Assembly (NCBI GenBank): GCA_902800395.1
Contig: CADCEC010000005.1
Coordinates: 1-64,000, forward strand
Origin: an uncultured Bacteroidota bacterium
Lineage (GTDB): Bacteria > Bacteroidota > Bacteroidia > Bacteroidales > P3
Reading direction: 5' to 3'
DNA length: 64,000 bases
Shown: in pieces, positions 34,993 to 42,633 of the stretch
Position numbering within the stretch: the stretch's first letter is position 1
How the letters are laid out: each line of letters starts with the position of its first letter
Notes under the pieces: generated by a model
The model's input: the letters and a program-made list of their open reading frames with translations, nothing else
Databases searched by the model: none
What the model was told of the DNA's origin: nothing
Position numbers and translations under genes: made by a program

Positions 34993-35000
34993 TATCTTTG
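34993..35000 (+). promoter_or_regulatory. Promoter -7 element of the type I locus
   Basis: TATCTTTG followed by CA, the strong Bacteroidetes -7 form. Transcription from here would begin about 70-80 bases before the structured leader and read toward the 246-residue gene and hsdMSR. Confidence 0.75.
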
Positions 35001-35080
35001 CAAATTGAAAATCAAACGATAAAAAGTAACTAAAACCGATTATTATAGACAGATAGAGTAATTGTAAATACATAATTTAA

Positions 35081-35236
35081 AGCGTTTTTGCTTTTCTTTG
35101 TAAGACCGAAATCTGGACCATTTCGACTATCATTACACAAGAAAGGGAAACGCTCACGGTATCCGTGGGCTTTCTTGTTCGTAATGATAGGTTGTCCAGA
35201 ACCTCGGTCTTGAACAGAAGTTCACGGACCTTTTTT
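35081..35236 (+). ncRNA. Structured leader RNA with mutually exclusive hairpin and terminator
   Basis: A long hairpin can form from five stacked stems: AAGACCGA (35102-35109) with TCGGTCTT (35204-35211), TGGAC (35114-35118) with GTCCA (35194-35198), CTATCATTAC (35127-35136) with GTAATGATAG (35181-35190), ACAAGAAAG (35137-35145) with CTTTCTTGT (35170-35178), and CACGG with CCGTG at the tip. The GGTC of the last strand can instead form a terminator: GGTC-t-TGAAC-agaa-GTTCA-cg-GACC then six T (35206-35236). A third pairing, AGCGTTT (35081-35087) with AAACGCT (35148-35154), would break the long hairpin. This is the design of a transcription attenuator. A 9-codon frame, MIGCPEPRS (35184-35213), lies within it. 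No Rfam family was recognised. Confidence 0.65.
35206..35236 (+). terminator. Attenuator-type intrinsic terminator
   Basis: GGTC/GACC outer stem and TGAAC/GTTCA inner stem with an AGAA loop, followed by TTTTTT. It competes with the leader hairpin for the GGTC segment. Confidence 0.75.
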
Positions 35237-35294
35237 ATTATATATTGAAACGAACAGAACTGAGAAACACAATACGATATCACCTGAGCAGCAG

Positions 35295-36035
35295 ATGAAG
35301 AATGACGCGGACATAGAACAATTCCAGTATTCACAGATACAGAACTACCCATACGAACGGTGGTTTCGTGAGGTGAGGTATAGCGGAAAGACATTAACAG
35401 AAACTGAACGAAAAGAGTTTCTCGCTGCATCAGAGAAAGTGATTGCCTCTTATTCTAGAGGGTTGCCTTTGATTACATCACAACTAGAAAGATCCAAAGA
35501 GTTACACGATGAGTACCATGAAATCTATCGGACCTTGCTCTCGGTTATGCTCTTTACACTCTTAATAGTGATTGACTGTATCGTCGCCTGTAAATTATTC
35601 ATGATGGCCGACAAGGATTATGACCGTCGTTTTACGCGTGGCAAAATGAAGATTATTCTTAATGAGGGATTCAAGAAACTTTATGGTTTTGACGAAAAAA
35701 CGCACAAGAAATCAGAGTGGAATAGACTTGCCACGATATTGAAATATTTCCCAGAAAAAATTCAAAAACAATACCAAGAACTGTCATCTTTGCTTGAGGA
35801 GCAATCCAAATCTTCTTCATGGTGGAAGGATGAACGCGATTTGGAAACACACCTTGACGCAGATAAACTATATGCTTCAAGATGCGAAGATGTTATTGAG
35901 AGTAAGGTAATGACGGATTCTATAAAGCTTATCAATGCTCTTTTTGCAGGATATGCTTTTTTAACCAACATGAATGCATGTGTCTTCAATTTTCTTCTCG
36001 AAACATATCGGCGTGGAGAATTGAGAGAGGAATAA
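35295..36035 (+). CDS. Possible HEPN-type protein with hydrophobic segment, 246 aa
   Basis: Not matched to a named family. Residues 81-103 form a strongly hydrophobic segment (LLSVMLFTLLIVID and on), either a transmembrane helix or a buried core helix. Further on, WWKDERDLETHLDADKLYASR contains R181-x4-H186, the RX4-6H pattern of HEPN ribonucleases, within a helical setting. It is followed after 27 bases by hsdM and preceded by the attenuator leader. HEPN anticodon nucleases such as PrrC occur in other type I loci as suicidal back-ups, so a toxin or RNase role is a reasonable guess, not a demonstrated one. Confidence 0.5.
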   Translation: MKNDADIEQFQYSQIQNYPYERWFREVRYSGKTLTETERKEFLAASEKVIASYSRGLPLITSQLERSKELHDEYHEIYRTLLSVMLFTLLIVIDCIVACKLFMMADKDYDRRFTRGKMKIILNEGFKKLYGFDEKTHKKSEWNRLATILKYFPEKIQKQYQELSSLLEEQSKSSSWWKDERDLETHLDADKLYASRCEDVIESKVMTDSIKLINALFAGYAFLTNMNACVFNFLLETYRRGELREE

Positions 36036-36062: not shown

Positions 36063-37673
36063 ATGGCTAAAAGAACTACAAAAAAAGAAGAAACCATCAA
36101 CCTTGATGCTATCCTATTCAAGTGCAGGGATATTTTGAGAAATGCGAAGAACTCGGGCTCTTTCTTCGAGAAGCGCGACATGATGCTGACGCTCGTGTTT
36201 CTGCGTTTCATTGGTGAGAAATACGAAGACGGCGTGGCGAAGCTGCGCGAAAAGCTTATCAAAGAGGGTTTAGATCCTGATGATGAGAATATCATTAAAG
36301 CATTCTTTGAGGATGCTACCTTTGCTGACGGCACTTTCGACCTTCCGAAAGAATCGCAGTGGAATACCATTATCAACACTCCTGCGCCTCAGTTGAATGT
36401 GGCTCTCGATACGGCTTTGAAGGGCATCAGCTCGACCAATCCGCAGCTGAAGGGCTGCTTTGTTGAAGGTACATTTACTCAGCGTAACCTGGGTGCCAAC
36501 GATATCAAGAAGGTGGTTGACGAGGTGAATAAAATCAGCCACAAGGCTTTCGGTGAGGAGAAAGACCTGATTGGTCGTGTTTATGAGTATTTCTTGAAGG
36601 AGTTTGCCGTTAACGCCACCAAGGAAGAGGGCGAATTCTATACACCGCACGATGTGGTTCAGCTTATCGCTACCGTTATCGAGCCTTTCGATGGAACGCT
36701 TTACGACCCTTGCTGTGGTTCGGGCGGTATGTTTATACAGAGTTCCGAACTGGTGAAAGCCAAACAGGGCGATATCAGCACTATCAATGTTTACGGACAG
36801 GAGAAAGAGGCGGCCACCTACCGACTGGCAAAGATGAACCTCGCTTTGCGTGGTATAAGCCATAATCTGGGAGATGAGAGCGATTCGTCTTTCCTGAACG
36901 ATTTGCACAAAGGGCTTTACTTCGACTATATCATGGCCAATCCTCCGTTCAATCTCAAAGGATGGTGGGACGATAATTTGGAAGGAGATCCTCGCTGGAC
37001 GGATTATGCTACCCCACCGGAGAGCAATGCCAACTATGCCTGGATTCTTCACATGCTTTCCCACTTAAAACCGCTTTCGGGCGTGGCTGGTTTCCTGCTG
37101 GCCAATGGTGCATTGGGCGATACCGATGCGCTTGAGATTCGCAAGAAACTGATTGAGAATGATAAGGTGGAAGCCATCATCATTCTTCCAAGAGAGCTAT
37201 TCATCACAACCGATATCAGCGTCACTTTCTGGATTCTGAACCAGAACAAGAAAGGCGGCAAGTACCACGGACGCCAGCTGCGCAACCGCGAGAAAGAGAT
37301 TCTCTTTATGGATTTGCGCCAGTGGACGGAGAACCCGGTTAAGGGCGAACAAAAAAAGAAAGTGTTGCTGACGGCAGAACAGATTCAGCGTGTGGCTGAT
37401 ATCTATCATAAGTGGCAATCTGAAGGAACAGATGGTAAAAATTATGCGGTTCCTGAGTTGTATAAGAGTGTCGGAATAGATGAGATTGAAAAGAACAACT
37501 GGACGCTGGTTCCGAGCAAATACATCGAGTTTATCGACCACGACTTGGAGATTGACTATCCCAAGGAGATGGCTCGCATCCAGAAAGAAATGAAAGCCCT
37601 GATGCAGCAGGAAAAAAACTCGCAGAAGAAACTCGAAGAGGCATTTAAAGGTATTGGCTATGGGATTGACTAA
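36063..37673 (+). CDS. hsdM: Type I restriction-modification methyltransferase subunit HsdM
   Basis: 536 residues. An N-terminal helical domain (HsdM_N) is followed by the adenine methyltransferase core: EEGEFYTPHDVVQLI, DPCCGSGGMFI (motif I, about 216-226), and ANPPFNLKGWW (motif IV with NPPF, about 292-302), then GVAGFLLANGALG. It methylates adenine with SAM as part of M2S. Its 3' end overlaps the hsdS start by 14 bases. Confidence 0.93.
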   Translation: MAKRTTKKEETINLDAILFKCRDILRNAKNSGSFFEKRDMMLTLVFLRFIGEKYEDGVAKLREKLIKEGLDPDDENIIKAFFEDATFADGTFDLPKESQWNTIINTPAPQLNVALDTALKGISSTNPQLKGCFVEGTFTQRNLGANDIKKVVDEVNKISHKAFGEEKDLIGRVYEYFLKEFAVNATKEEGEFYTPHDVVQLIATVIEPFDGTLYDPCCGSGGMFIQSSELVKAKQGDISTINVYGQEKEAATYRLAKMNLALRGISHNLGDESDSSFLNDLHKGLYFDYIMANPPFNLKGWWDDNLEGDPRWTDYATPPESNANYAWILHMLSHLKPLSGVAGFLLANGALGDTDALEIRKKLIENDKVEAIIILPRELFITTDISVTFWILNQNKKGGKYHGRQLRNREKEILFMDLRQWTENPVKGEQKKKVLLTAEQIQRVADIYHKWQSEGTDGKNYAVPELYKSVGIDEIEKNNWTLVPSKYIEFIDHDLEIDYPKEMARIQKEMKALMQQEKNSQKKLEEAFKGIGYGID

Positions 37674-38763
37674 GTATAAACTGGGCGAACTGATTACGGT
37701 TTGTGATGAGCGTAACTCGTTAGGCCTGACGAATTTCTATGGGCTGAATATCAACAAGGAGTTTATGCCAACTGTTGCAAATACCGAAGGTTTGGACGAA
37801 TCAAAATACAAGGTTGTCCGCAACAAGAAGTTCGTATTTAGTGGTATGCAAACAGGACGAGACGAATGTATCAGAATCAGTATGTACACTGGTAAAGAAC
37901 CAATTATTGTTTCTCCAGCATATACAACATTTGAGGTTTCGCGTGAGGATCTTGTTATACCTGATTATTTCTTCATGCTATTCTTGTCACATGAAAAAGA
38001 TCGTTATGGAGCTTTCTGTAGTGATGGTAGCATTCGCTCAAACTTAGATTGGGAAAGATTCATTGATTTTGATATCACCCTTCCGGATATCGATGTCCAG
38101 CGCAAATATGTTGATGTTTATCTGGCTCTGCAAAACAATCTTGCCGCTTACCAAAGTAAAGTGGAGGATTTGAAGCTGGTTTGCGATGGGTATATTGAAG
38201 ATTTGAGGAAGAGAATAACCCCGGAAGAAATAGAACCATACATCAGATGTGTTGATGAAAAAAATGAAGGATTATCCATAACATTAACTCAAGGTGTAGA
38301 TGTTAATATGCAGTTCATATCTGCAAAAAGAGAGGCAGAAGATCAAGAAGGAACAAAAATAGTTAGAACCGGACAATTTGCATTTAATAAAGTTGTAAAA
38401 AGCAATGGTACAAAGTTACCGATAGCATTACGTGAAGGTCCTGATTGTGTTATTTCCAGTTCTTATGAGGTATTTGAAGTGATAGATAAGGATAAGCTTT
38501 ATCCTGAATATTTAATGTTGTGGCTATCTCGTTCTGAGACACATCGTCAATGTGGATATAGGTCATATGGAACAACCAGAGATGTTTTTCCATTTGAAGA
38601 ATTGTGTAAATTGAAATTTCCGATACCAGATATTACTATTCAAAAAAATATAGCCAACATTTACAGTTGCTATATTCAACGACAAAAGATAGCTGCCCAA
38701 CTGAAAGAGCAACTGAACAATCTCTGCCCGATATTGATTAAAGGCTCACTCCAACCCAACTAA
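37660..38763 (+). CDS. hsdS: Type I specificity subunit HsdS
   Basis: 367 residues from the ATG at 37660 (MGLTKYKLGELITVCDERN). Two target recognition domains are visible: the first with KYKVVRNKKFVFSGMQTGRD and the central helix QRKYVDVYLALQNNLAAYQS, the second with IVRTGQFAFNKVVKSNGTKL, then IQKNIANIYSCYIQRQKIAA. Each half binds one part of a split DNA target. No second hsdS copy, invertase or flanking inverted repeat is present, so phase variation is not indicated. The base composition of TRD2 is markedly more AT-rich than hsdM or hsdR, fitting domain exchange. Confidence 0.9.
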   Translation: MGLTKYKLGELITVCDERNSLGLTNFYGLNINKEFMPTVANTEGLDESKYKVVRNKKFVFSGMQTGRDECIRISMYTGKEPIIVSPAYTTFEVSREDLVIPDYFFMLFLSHEKDRYGAFCSDGSIRSNLDWERFIDFDITLPDIDVQRKYVDVYLALQNNLAAYQSKVEDLKLVCDGYIEDLRKRITPEEIEPYIRCVDEKNEGLSITLTQGVDVNMQFISAKREAEDQEGTKIVRTGQFAFNKVVKSNGTKLPIALREGPDCVISSSYEVFEVIDKDKLYPEYLMLWLSRSETHRQCGYRSYGTTRDVFPFEELCKLKFPIPDITIQKNIANIYSCYIQRQKIAAQLKEQLNNLCPILIKGSLQPN

Positions 38764-38775
38764 TATTCTGTAATC

Positions 38776-41700
38776 ATGGCAAAGCTTAAGAACATCAACG
38801 GCCACTTTGTGGAGAGCGACTATGAAAACGCGCTCATCTCTTTCCTTGAGAATGAAGATTGGCAATACGTTTATGGCGATAACATACCACGAGCCAACAA
38901 AAAGGAAGTCCTTTATATGGACGACCTGCTGCAGTTTCTGAAGCAGAGCAATCCTGAACTGGACGACGATGATGTTCAAAAGATAGCCGACAACGTCCGC
39001 TTGGTGGGAGCCGAGTCGGACTTTGCCACATTGCACAAGGTTTATGGTTGGATGGTCGATGGTGTTCAGTTTATCTCAAAAAAGGGTGAGGCCAAGATGG
39101 TTTCGCTAATCGATTTTGAGAATACTGACAACAATATCTTCAGAGTTGTCAACCAATTCAGCGTTGAATACATCAACAACGGCTTGACAAAGACGCGTCG
39201 TCCTGATGTGCTGCTTTATGTGAACGGAATGCCGGTTTGTATTATCGAGCTTAAGAATCCGGCTGATGCCAATGCTACAGTTCACGACGCTTGGGAACAG
39301 ATCAATATCCGCTATTGGAGAGATATTCCACATCTGCTGCACTATTGTCCGCTTGCCTGCATCAGCGATGGAGTGAACACTAGATTAGGAACAGTAAGAA
39401 CACCCTACGAGCATTTTTATGCCTGGCGCAGGGTGAATGATGGCGACAAGATTTCAACCATGCCGTATGATGAGCTGGAAACCATGGTGAAGGGTGTTTA
39501 TCGGCCAGAGCGATTCTTGGAAATATTTAGAGATTACATCTATTTCCGTGATAAGATTTATGATCATGATGAAGTGGAAATAGTGTGCCGATACCCACAG
39601 TTTTTCGCCACACGATTGCTTCGCGAAAGTGTTATCAAATCGGTAAGAAACCGTAGCGGAAAAGGTGGAACATACTTTGGCGCCACAGGTTGCGGAAAGA
39701 CTTTCACAATGGCATTTCTTGCCCGTCAGTTATCGATGCGTTGCACGGAAGAAATAGGCTCGCCCACCATATTGATGATTGTTGACCGTGACGATTTACA
39801 GAAGCAAGGTTCACAGTTATTTACCAAGAGTACGGAGTTTTTAGGTTTAGGTGAAGTAAAAGTTGTTCCAAGCAGAAGAATACTCCGACAGGAACTGGCA
39901 GCACGCCAGAGTGGCGGTTTCTACATCTGCACCATTCAGAAGTTCTGCGACAGACAAGAGGATAAAATAGGTCTCATCAACGAACGTGCAAACATTATTT
40001 GCTTTAGTGACGAAGCCCACAGAACACAGATAGAAGGCTCACGCAGAATCCAATTCAGCGAAGATGCCGATGCCAACATGAAGGCCATGATATCGAAGCC
40101 ATACGCTAAGGTGTTGCGCGAAGCTTTGCCGAATGCTACCTTTGTTGGCTTTACCGGTACTCCTATAGCCGAAACCTATCAAACTTTCGGTGAAGAAATT
40201 GACCGTTACACAATGGATCAGTCGGTGGCCGATGGTATTACTGTTCCTATCAAATATCACCCGAGAATAGCCAAGGTGCTTCTCAACCAAAACAAGGTAA
40301 AAGACATCGAGGCTTATTATTCGAAGTGTGCCGATGAAGGTTCGACAAAAGAAGACATCCTCAAGAGCAAGAAGGCAATGAGCTCGCTCGAAGTTATTTT
40401 GGGCGATCCTGACCGATTGGACAAATTAGCAATTGATATTCACGACCATTATGTGGCAGCAACAGCAGTTGACCCGGATAGGGTTCAGAAGGCTATGATT
40501 GTATGCGCCAACAGGAAGATTGCCTATAATCTGTTGATGAAATTCAAGGAGCATTATCCCGAATGGTTCGTTGAGAAGAAAACACCAGAAGGCGTCGTGG
40601 TATCGGAGTCAGAATTGAAGAAGCTAAAGGAAATGCCAACCATTGCGATGGTGTCAAGTGTGGGAAGCAACGACGAGCCTGATATGTACAACTATCTCGG
40701 TGGAGTTAAGAACGACCAGCGTTCAGATCAGATGGATGTAGCCTTTAAACAGGAGCACTCCAATTTCAGGATAGTGATTGTGGTGGATATGTGGATAACA
40801 GGTTTTGATGTCGAGTGCCTTACCTATATGTACAACGACAAACCGTTGCAAAAGCACTCGCTCATCCAAACCATCAGCCGTGTCAACCGCAAATATCCAG
40901 GCAAGAACTATGGCTTGATTGTTGACTATATTGGCATTCGCGACCACATGATGGAAGCCATCAAAGTGTATGGAGGAGAGGGTGGCTCGGTGGCTCCAAC
41001 ACCAGATGACATAGAACAGGCAACAATGATATTCCGTGAATATCTGGAAATGCTGAAGAACCTGTTTAAGAATTACGACCTCACACCATTCCTCAATGCT
41101 GAGTCAGATCCTGCTTTGAGATTCAAGCTGCTGGCCAAAGCTGCCGAATATGTGTTCCAATCGACCGATGAATTGAACTCAGTCAGTACCGATGGTAAGA
41201 AGGTTAAGAAGGTGTCGTTTAAGACCTACTTCCTGCAGGTGGTGAAGAGAATGCGCAAAGCCTACGACCTCTGTCAGCCATCGGGCGAGCTTGGAGAGGA
41301 AGAATCGGCACTAGCACAATGCTTTATGGCAATAGCCGGTATGGTTTACAAGATGAGCGGCACGGACGCACCAGATACCGATACCATGAACCGCCACGTG
41401 TCGAAGATGGTTGAAGAAGCTTTGAGATACAACAATGTTGAGAGTGTTCTTGAAGAAGGAGACGAAATGGACATTTTTGGTCCTGAATTTACAGAAAGGC
41501 TTGAAGATATCAAGATGCCAGCAACGAAGTTGGAAGTGCTGATTAAGCTTTTGCGCAAACAGATTACGGAATACGGAAAAACCAACCAAGTGGCATCGAA
41601 AAAATTCCAAGAGATGCTGGAGGCGACCATCAAACAATATCACGAACGCCGCAAGTTCCTCTCTGAGCAGGAAGCTGGTGCTACTCAAGAAGCAACAGCC

Positions 41701-42216
41701 GAAAGCATCCTGCAAAGTGCAACCGAACAGGCTTTGGAGATTTTGAAAGGCATGCAAGCCGACCGCGAGAGCTTCCGCAAACTGGGATTGACGTTTGAGG
41801 AAAAGGCTTTCTATGATATCCTGATTCAGTTGCGCGATAAACACAATTTCGTATATGGTGAAGACAAGACCGTAGATGGAATTGTTGTAAATGACAAATG
41901 TAAGAGTCTTGCTTGCAAGATTCGTGAAATCATCGATGCCAAATCATCCTTTGCCGACTGGCTAAACAACCAGAATGTCCGTAACCAACTGAAACAAGAC
42001 ATCAAGATATGCCTTGTGAAGAACGGCTATCCCCCGCAATACACACCAGAGGTGTTCAGAGAAGTAATGGATCAAGTGGAGAATTTCAAGGAGAATGAGG
42101 AGCAGGATTATGAAGGAACGGCAGTTCCATCCTATCATAAAATCATTCCATATATTGTAGAGGACGAAAAGGGCGAAATGCTAAAAGCAGCAGAAGACGA
42201 GACACCGTATAAATAG
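38776..42216 (+). CDS. hsdR: Type I restriction endonuclease subunit HsdR
   Basis: 1146 residues. N-terminal nuclease domain with RRPDVLLYVNGMPVCIIELK (D143, E155, K157 by count), then an SF2 translocase core: GATGCGKT Walker A near 302-309, IICFSDEAH (motif II) near 410, FVGFTGTP, and QTISRVNRKYPGKNYGLIVD (motif VI region) near 700. The C-terminal part interacts with HsdM. It pumps unmodified DNA and cleaves at a distance. It follows hsdS by 12 bases. The presence of the complete motifs suggests an active enzyme. Confidence 0.93.
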   Translation: MAKLKNINGHFVESDYENALISFLENEDWQYVYGDNIPRANKKEVLYMDDLLQFLKQSNPELDDDDVQKIADNVRLVGAESDFATLHKVYGWMVDGVQFISKKGEAKMVSLIDFENTDNNIFRVVNQFSVEYINNGLTKTRRPDVLLYVNGMPVCIIELKNPADANATVHDAWEQINIRYWRDIPHLLHYCPLACISDGVNTRLGTVRTPYEHFYAWRRVNDGDKISTMPYDELETMVKGVYRPERFLEIFRDYIYFRDKIYDHDEVEIVCRYPQFFATRLLRESVIKSVRNRSGKGGTYFGATGCGKTFTMAFLARQLSMRCTEEIGSPTILMIVDRDDLQKQGSQLFTKSTEFLGLGEVKVVPSRRILRQELAARQSGGFYICTIQKFCDRQEDKIGLINERANIICFSDEAHRTQIEGSRRIQFSEDADANMKAMISKPYAKVLREALPNATFVGFTGTPIAETYQTFGEEIDRYTMDQSVADGITVPIKYHPRIAKVLLNQNKVKDIEAYYSKCADEGSTKEDILKSKKAMSSLEVILGDPDRLDKLAIDIHDHYVAATAVDPDRVQKAMIVCANRKIAYNLLMKFKEHYPEWFVEKKTPEGVVVSESELKKLKEMPTIAMVSSVGSNDEPDMYNYLGGVKNDQRSDQMDVAFKQEHSNFRIVIVVDMWITGFDVECLTYMYNDKPLQKHSLIQTISRVNRKYPGKNYGLIVDYIGIRDHMMEAIKVYGGEGGSVAPTPDDIEQATMIFREYLEMLKNLFKNYDLTPFLNAESDPALRFKLLAKAAEYVFQSTDELNSVSTDGKKVKKVSFKTYFLQVVKRMRKAYDLCQPSGELGEEESALAQCFMAIAGMVYKMSGTDAPDTDTMNRHVSKMVEEALRYNNVESVLEEGDEMDIFGPEFTERLEDIKMPATKLEVLIKLLRKQITEYGKTNQVASKKFQEMLEATIKQYHERRKFLSEQEAGATQEATAESILQSATEQALEILKGMQADRESFRKLGLTFEEKAFYDILIQLRDKHNFVYGEDKTVDGIVVNDKCKSLACKIREIIDAKSSFADWLNNQNVRNQLKQDIKICLVKNGYPPQYTPEVFREVMDQVENFKENEEQDYEGTAVPSYHKIIPYIVEDEKGEMLKAAEDETPYK

Positions 42217-42540: not shown

Positions 42541-42633
42541 TCGCCCCGCAGGGGCTCAAGGGGGGAGAGGGGGCGTTTGTGTACCGGGGGCTGGCGCCCC
42601 CGGCTAAGATCTGGCGCCCGCGTTGCGGGCTTG
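42541..42633. repeat. REP-like element, copy D
   Basis: CCCCGCAGGGG hairpin, then CGGGGGCTGGCGCCCCCGG and CTAAGATCTGGCGCCCGCG with a CGTTGCGGGC tail. Same family as copies at 386-442, 3236-3275, and 54671-54753. Confidence 0.65.

Follow-up and report, generated by a model that had tools for sequence, protein, structure and literature searches.

A structured leader RNA ahead of a type I restriction locus represents a large RNA family of Bacteroidia and a putative transcription attenuator

The leader and its genes

The window, meaning the whole stretch of 64,000 nucleotides analysed here, belongs to a contig of an uncultured Bacteroidota bacterium, and the features of it described below all lie on the forward strand. 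At 34993-35000 the window carries TATCTTTG, which we take to be a Bacteroidota -7 promoter element from its match to the consensus TAnnTTTG; the element is present exactly where a first-pass annotation of this DNA had placed a promoter. Downstream, a covariance model of the leader RNA (R2) matches 35069-35239 (cmsearch, 161.6 bits, E 8.8e-32; the antisense shadow of the same leader scores 31.5 bits). The first gene after the leader encodes a 246-residue protein (ORF 35295-36035) and is followed by hsdM (36063-37673; N6_Mtase 8.5e-90, HsdM_N 1.6e-12), hsdS (37654-38763, start codon uncertain; Methylase_S 1.1e-12, PADLOC Specificity_I 1.1e-87) and hsdR (38776-42216; T1RH-like_C 5.3e-63, SWI2_SNF2, HSDR_N), the gene order that had been claimed.

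Folding of the leader, proposed earlier as a check, gave a clear result. The segment 35001-35245 reaches -68.1 kcal/mol. Dinucleotide shuffles (n=200) give -43.6 (sd 4.11), which places the leader at z -5.96, and none of them folds as well. The element TAnnTTTG is found upstream of 60/82 and 76/100 distinct copies of the leader in two copy groups; where the copy belongs to another order, the distance to the model start is mostly 6-15 nt.

A separate Rfam match, to Acido-Lenti-1, lies between hsdR and enolase at 42584-42631 (+); its 37.5 bits just exceed the gathering score, which is 37. The taxa given for this motif in the table of PMC2864571 are Acidobacteria and Lentisphaerae, far from the host of the window.

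A large RNA family across Bacteroidia

The window's own genome contains four further long matches to the leader (blastn). They precede a small lipoprotein, a 228-residue protein, a C10-peptidase-like secreted protein and an hsdM-hsdS locus; the first two neighbours were named by eye, the third by Pfam. A covariance model built from four own-genome copies (R1) finds nine places in this genome at E <= 0.001, and a broader model built from 78 sequences (R2) finds seven. With R1, 109/120 genomes of the genus have at least one match at E <= 0.01, with 1 to 12 copies per genome, counts that are lower bounds owing to stricter filters. With R2, matches were obtained in 107/295 genomes and 75/184 genera of a sample of the order, and in 28/296 genomes of a sample of the phylum, 26 of which belong to other orders of the same class.

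Scanned with an exact pattern, genome contigs yielded at least 119 stretches. Among the 80 matches listed, 79 are titled Bacteroidota and one 'uncultured bacterium', and they include Prevotellaceae, Paludibacteraceae, Tannerella, Alistipes, Odoribacter and Symbiothrix. The pattern fixes exact letters in the kissing loops described below, and variation there is hidden among the loci it retrieved. No match to one exact pattern was found in 2.9 million viral contigs, and blastn with the window copy found nothing in plasmid and phage collections; divergent members could be missed by either search.

The leader matches no known RNA family, an outcome on which the first-pass annotation had made its reading depend: Rfam 15 at gathering scores gives nothing over 35001-35240, and at E <= 1 no match overlaps the leader in 30 loci with family members. 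The leader is one copy of a large structured-RNA family that is found across Bacteroidia and is absent from Rfam 15. A search of the open-access literature found no description of this leader family.

The leader precedes many unrelated genes

Counts of orientation, T runs and mini-ORFs start from the 182 copies that differ in their RNA among 199 matches, and 163 distinct copies had enough sequence behind them for orientation to be scored. The next gene lies on the same strand in 152 of these 163 (simple ORF caller), at a median distance of 50 nt; for 121 of the 152 the gap to the model end does not exceed 100 nt. At the same loci the nearest upstream gene shows a strand split of 62:52. The 28 copies scored in other orders split 25 to 3 in favour of a same-strand gene.

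A total of 129 of 145 downstream proteins were scanned with Pfam, 82 of them mostly from the genus and its near kin and 47 forming the other set. In the genus-and-kin set the matches are to ResIII (10), SNF2 (9), PLD-like (8), Mrr_cat_2 (7), BspA repeats (6), N6_Mtase (5) and the Por secretion tail (5). The other set yields BspA repeats (4), FkbM (2) and many single families, and six proteins scanned from other orders comprise three TonB receptors, one sigma factor, one FecR protein and one without a match. Across the 129 and these six, the downstream genes share no single pathway by Pfam. The leader is a general one that stands ahead of many unrelated genes, and the earlier proposal that it is tied to type I restriction does not survive this result.

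Defence genes are frequent behind the leader in the genus. PADLOC's commonest family is matched by 17/82 downstream proteins vs 4/82 upstream ORFs. When all PADLOC families matched are counted, the upstream set has 111 and the downstream set 83; since the upstream set matched more families, defence genes occur on both sides of the leader. Among the downstream proteins of other groups, 0/47 have a PADLOC match. With these numbers, an enrichment of defence genes behind the leader is not established.

Covariation supports a four-way junction with kissing hairpins

The structure was scored in two alignments, A3 (95 distinct rows) and A4 (100 distinct rows), as P0, P1, P2, P3, an apical hairpin, P4 and a loop contact between P2 and P4. 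The alignments overlap in some loci, so that the two covariation results are not independent, and the scored rows of A4 include three antisense shadows that were removed before the orientation counts. In A3 the whole structure has 97.0% of cells paired and double changes in 33/41 pairs, against an average of 76.7% paired in shuffles and 31-43% when partners were slid by 1-3 columns. The corresponding values for A4 are 97.2% and 35/41 pairs, against 73.9% for shuffles and 34-42% for slid partners. The stems thus co-vary in homologues, as the first-pass annotation had asked of its proposal.

The 5' end of the structure is the P0 hairpin at 35080-35093 (35080-35084 with 35089-35093), where 92.4% and 95.9% of cells are paired and 5/5 pairs show double changes in both A3 and A4. 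P1, the closing stem of the junction, joins 35102-35108 to 35205-35211 and is paired in 98.6% and 98.3% of cells, with double changes in 7/7 and 6/7 pairs (A3 and A4). This stem closes the long hairpin AAGACCG/CGGTCTT over 35102-35211 that had been described from the window alone; it lies at those coordinates and is conserved in homologues in both alignments. Within it, covariation also marks two short hairpins, P2 (35108-35124) and P4 (35189-35204). The P2 loop, CTGGAC at 35113-35118, kisses the P4 loop, GTCCAG at 35194-35199. In A3 and A4 alike, 99.5% of the cells of this kissing helix are paired, and 6/6 pairs are doubly changed. The variation comes from rows other than the pattern-fetched ones, because the loops of the latter are fixed by the pattern. 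The P4 stem AGGT/ACCT is paired in 86.9-98.4% of cells in A3 and 90.6% in A4. Between the two hairpins, the lower stem of P3 pairs 35127-35136 with 35181-35190; 98.3% and 98.5% of its cells are paired, and 8/8 scored pairs have double changes.

Taken as sequence evidence, this covariation supports a four-way junction made of a closing stem, two short kissing hairpins and a long central stem. G-U pairs are common overall, with UG in 50/89 cells of one apical pair, which points to a structure acting as RNA rather than as DNA.

Three mutually exclusive helices and a predicted terminator

Four segments of the window leader can pair in alternative ways: segment 1 at 35081-35103, the OFF-fold partner of segment 2; segment 2 at 35133-35159, the 5' strand of upper P3 with the apical hairpin; segment 3 at 35163-35180, which is the 3' strand of upper P3 and doubles as the 5' half of a predicted terminator; and segment 4 at 35212-35227, the 3' half of that terminator. 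Six T follow at 35231-35236, and a T run of at least 5 stands at the end of 3:4 in 177/182 distinct copies.

In a partner-swap test, segments were paired with their own partners or with those of other copies (203 distinct copies, of which 28 belong to other orders). The own partner gives the stronger pairing in all three helices: -18.75 vs -14.71 kcal/mol for 1:2 (z -19.6, n=203), -29.68 vs -19.35 kcal/mol for 2:3 (z -42) and -20.05 vs -15.16 kcal/mol for 3:4 (z -18.3, n=195). The z values are inflated by relatedness, which the control pairings share; in these, 1:3 and 4:2, own partners bring no gain (z +1.5 and +1.2). With short segments, 1:2 gains little (only -9.65 vs -8.72 kcal/mol, own vs mismatched). 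On a fixed alignment, 85.4% of 1:2 cells are paired and the covariation score is reached by 22/500 shuffles; 3:4 has 81.4% of cells paired, above every shuffle, and its number of pair types shows no excess (reached by 403/500 shuffles).

When 3:4 was forced, which was done in 177 of the 182 distinct copies, at least six 1:2 pairs appeared in 176/177 (median 20). The forced fold costs a median of 14.1 kcal/mol relative to the free fold, and 3:4 occurs in the free-energy minimum of only 2/177 copies. Since the ON fold is favoured at equilibrium by this margin, the OFF fold would need kinetics or a factor. For the window copy the free fold has -60.9 kcal/mol, the fold with 3:4 forced -49.9 and that with GGTC/GACC forced -57.5.

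These data bear on the two remaining pairings of the first-pass annotation. Its third pairing, AGCGTTT at 35081-35087 with AAACGCT at 35148-35154, is present and forms part of the conserved, co-varying helix 1:2; it opposes the long hairpin as proposed, in that 1:2 frees the 3' strand for the predicted terminator. The terminator had been placed at 35206-35236, with GGTCTTGAACAGAAGTTCACGGACC before six T. Those letters are there, but the pairing is weakly conserved: a run of at least four exact Watson-Crick pairs at the GGTC/GACC site is found in 31/166 copies vs 17.7 (sd 3.0) with partners permuted. We reject it as a family-wide terminator; in the window copy it may form. The conserved candidate for the terminator helix uses the 3' strand of the central stem and pairs 35163-35180 with 35212-35227. 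Overall, the covariation of exclusive helices supports the proposal of an attenuator-type leader with incompatible folds.

An outer stem of TACGCACAT with ATGTGCGTA around the whole RNA was considered and rejected for the family, with 10/70 non-genus copies in the best 5% and no signal among 96 genus-type copies. In a subset (L119, L131, L163, L165, L175, L178, L184, L186 and others) TACGCACAT before the core pairs with ATGTGCGTA just past the T run and would close the read-through RNA.

Short open reading frames upstream of the leader

The window copy has no ATG between the promoter and segment 1, and so no leader peptide over segment 1; the short ORFs of other members do not lie over segment 1 either. 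In a subset of these members an ORF of 2-6 codons occurs 25-90 nt before the model start, and many members outside the genus have a tiny ORF (GCYTATG...stop) upstream of P0, for example L131, L072, L078 and L077. An in-frame stop within six codons follows 28/29 ATGs in GC[C/T]TATG or AC[C/T]TATG contexts, vs 4 and 10 in the other frames; for ATGs in the chosen contexts the numbers are 39/40 vs 9 and 13. Compared with shuffles, the counts are 49/60 vs 29.1 (sd 3.6) outside the genus-type group and only 30/76 vs 23.6 (sd 3.5) within it. We keep the mini-ORF as a side finding because its contexts were chosen post hoc and the window copy is without one.

The 246-residue protein

In 190 genomes of the family, this protein has nine further full-length homologues, which are 49-66% identical, and 247 genomes of the order gave two weak matches besides the window's own gene. 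hsdM follows 3/9 homologues by Pfam and a fourth, at L011, by eye. The covariance model found the leader in 0/9 of these other homologue loci, each searched with 1500 nt upstream, and the coupling of leader and protein that had been suggested is contradicted. The leader is therefore a local acquisition at the window locus or has been lost elsewhere. On this evidence and that of the varied downstream genes, we reject an exclusive tie of the leader to hsdM or to the 246-residue protein.

The R181-x4-H186 motif picked out by the first-pass annotation holds up, with R181 and H186 invariant in 10/10 sequences (R-x4-6-H). The HEPN identity drawn from it finds no support: the protein has no Pfam, PADLOC or PDB-sequence match, and Foldseek returns nothing at E <= 0.001 (best E 0.15), with none named HEPN among 50 listed of 674. 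Its AlphaFold model is all-helical with a mean pLDDT of 79.3, and the motif sits in a low-confidence stretch (residues 180-196, pLDDT under 50). PrrC-type anticodon nucleases of type I loci combine NTPase and HEPN domains beside the hsd genes. With 246 residues only and no NTPase family match, the protein does not fit this architecture.

The gene ahead of the homologues at L009, L011, L013 and L015 resembles, by eye, members of the phage Gp37/Gp68-like DUF5131 family.

Discussion

We propose that the leader is probably a cis-acting transcription attenuator, a reading that draws on its family, its position, its structure, the covariation of three exclusive helices and the T run. Termination, switching and the trigger are predicted parts of this proposal. 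Polymerase would start at about 35007 and transcribe, in order, segment 1, the P1 5' strand, P2, segments 2 and 3, P4, the P1 3' strand, segment 4, the U run and the gene. Segment 1 would pair with 2 as soon as the latter emerges. If segment 3 then displaces 1 from 2, P1 could close, the P2 and P4 loops kiss and the junction become locked; in this ON fold, segment 4 would stay single-stranded and polymerase would read through. If instead 1:2 persists until segment 4 emerges, 3:4 would form right before the U run and transcription would stop (OFF fold). The outcome may be set by whatever stabilises or opens the junction, be it a protein, a small molecule, a ribosome or the speed of polymerase, with the P1 stem and the kissing loops favouring 2:3 and the junction serving as a built-in sensor or clamp. 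The functions of the downstream genes point to no common signal. When the window copy is forced into the OFF fold, P2 and P4 remain as the tips of two long hairpins, and the modelled kissing contact could therefore hold both halves together in either state.

A riboswitch, in which the four-way junction with kissing loops would be a small-molecule aptamer and 3:4 its expression platform, is possible but rather doubtful. Aptamers with their platforms are usually built in this way, from a junction, a loop-loop contact and a terminator that can be switched, and the sequence around P2 and P4 is strongly conserved. Against this, the downstream genes share no pathway, and a fixed binding core is not seen because the parts conserved best are themselves in helices whose changes compensate one another. 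The placement of the leader ahead of restriction, helicase, surface and glycosyltransferase genes recalls RfaH-type regulons and would fit processive antitermination, in which the leader modifies polymerase and thereby lets it read through long operons gained by horizontal transfer. We consider this unlikely, since antitermination alone leaves three co-varying exclusive helices and a T run before the gene unexplained.

Its own promoter element and T run, with TAnnTTTG at a mostly short distance from the model start in other orders, would suit a free small RNA that acts in trans and merely adjoins genes. The position of the leader relative to its neighbours makes this a poor prospect: 152/163 copies are followed by a same-strand gene, at a median of 50 nt, vs the near-even 62:52 upstream. 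Highly improbable, in our view, is a mobile (MITE-like) repeat that carries a promoter. Up to 12 copies per genome with different genes behind them, and two own-genome copies with a near-identical 5' part, speak for such a repeat, but the stems change by compensation and not by copying, the orientation towards the gene is fixed, and neither the viral contigs (one exact pattern) nor plasmids or phages (blastn) gave a match. We give just as little credence to a HEPN toxin that is linked to type I restriction and controlled by the RNA, a guard resembling an anticodon nuclease. Such a guard could draw on the invariant R-x4-H motif (10/10), on hsdM after 3/9 homologues and at L011, and on the second own-genome leader copy ahead of hsdM-hsdS, yet 0/9 other homologue loci carry the leader and no scan gave a HEPN match.

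Read as an attenuator, the leader is of a kind already known, a structured leader with exclusive helices and a terminator. In trp-type four-segment attenuators, helices 1:2, 2:3 and 3:4 exclude one another, and the last is followed by a T run. The leader family likewise has exclusive 1:2, 2:3 and 3:4 helices and a T run, but differs in the four-way junction with kissing hairpins set between its segments, in that the window copy lacks a leader peptide covering segment 1, and in that its genes do not belong to one amino-acid pathway. Riboswitches with loop-loop contacts include the purine and lysine classes, with which the family shares a kissing-held junction beside a switchable predicted terminator; unlike these classes, it has no Rfam match and stands before unrelated gene sets. 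EAR, put and JUMPstart/ops are structured leaders that modify polymerase. Like them, the family occurs ahead of varied, long surface or horizontally gained operons, and it differs from them in having a co-varying predicted terminator inside the element.

JUMPstart and epsC are listed in PMC2864571, which also presents Bacteroidales-1, Flavo-1 and GUCCY-hairpin as Bacteroidetes RNA motifs found by comparison. Bacteroidales-1 and Flavo-1 are both in Rfam and neither matches the leader. GUCCY-hairpin has no Rfam number there and could overlap the leader family in part. In Flavobacterium psychrophilum, 64 structured 5' regions without Rfam matches were described (PMC9723704), some of which could belong to the leader family; the excerpt of that paper used here describes no comparable multi-gene family. 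Relative to Rfam 15 and the open-access literature, what appears to be new is the family itself, its predicted kissing-hairpin junction within a four-segment attenuator, and its spread.

A more far-reaching and tentative idea, which we would not expect to hold, is a class-wide switch that works by branch migration at the four-way junction and sets the expression of phage- and neighbour-facing genes, perhaps cell by cell. One long fold (P1 with 2:3) would exchange with two long hairpins (1:2 tipped by P2 and 3:4 tipped by P4), the same kissing loops joining both halves in either state. Its targets would be TonB receptors, BspA-type surface proteins, lipoproteins and surface-sugar genes, along with restriction and helicase defence. 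The attenuator proposal itself, if right, would mean a large and so far unlisted regulatory RNA class in a major gut and soil lineage, often with several copies per genome. Surface proteins and restriction systems of Bacteroidota would then have a layer of control in common, and the leader would be a compact two-state RNA whose closing stem and kissing contact rival a terminator.

Repeated and rearranged copies of the leader

Several copies of the leader show features of their own. Two own-genome copies (L003 and L004) are near-identical from the promoter to P0 but have different stems after it, a pattern that homogenisation of the 5' part would produce. In the copy ahead of hsdM-hsdS (L005/L027, on the minus strand of own contig C7), several tens of bases are inserted between P2 and P3, and the 5' part of the leader occurs once more, truncated, directly before hsdM. 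Two copies lie about 3.6 kb apart on the same contig at L043/L246 (G043 contig C7), and two others about 1.6 kb apart at L111, ahead of similar genes. At L251:1254-1357 (-), a SAM-I/IV riboswitch match (54 bits, gathering 41.1) adjoins a leader copy on the opposite strand.
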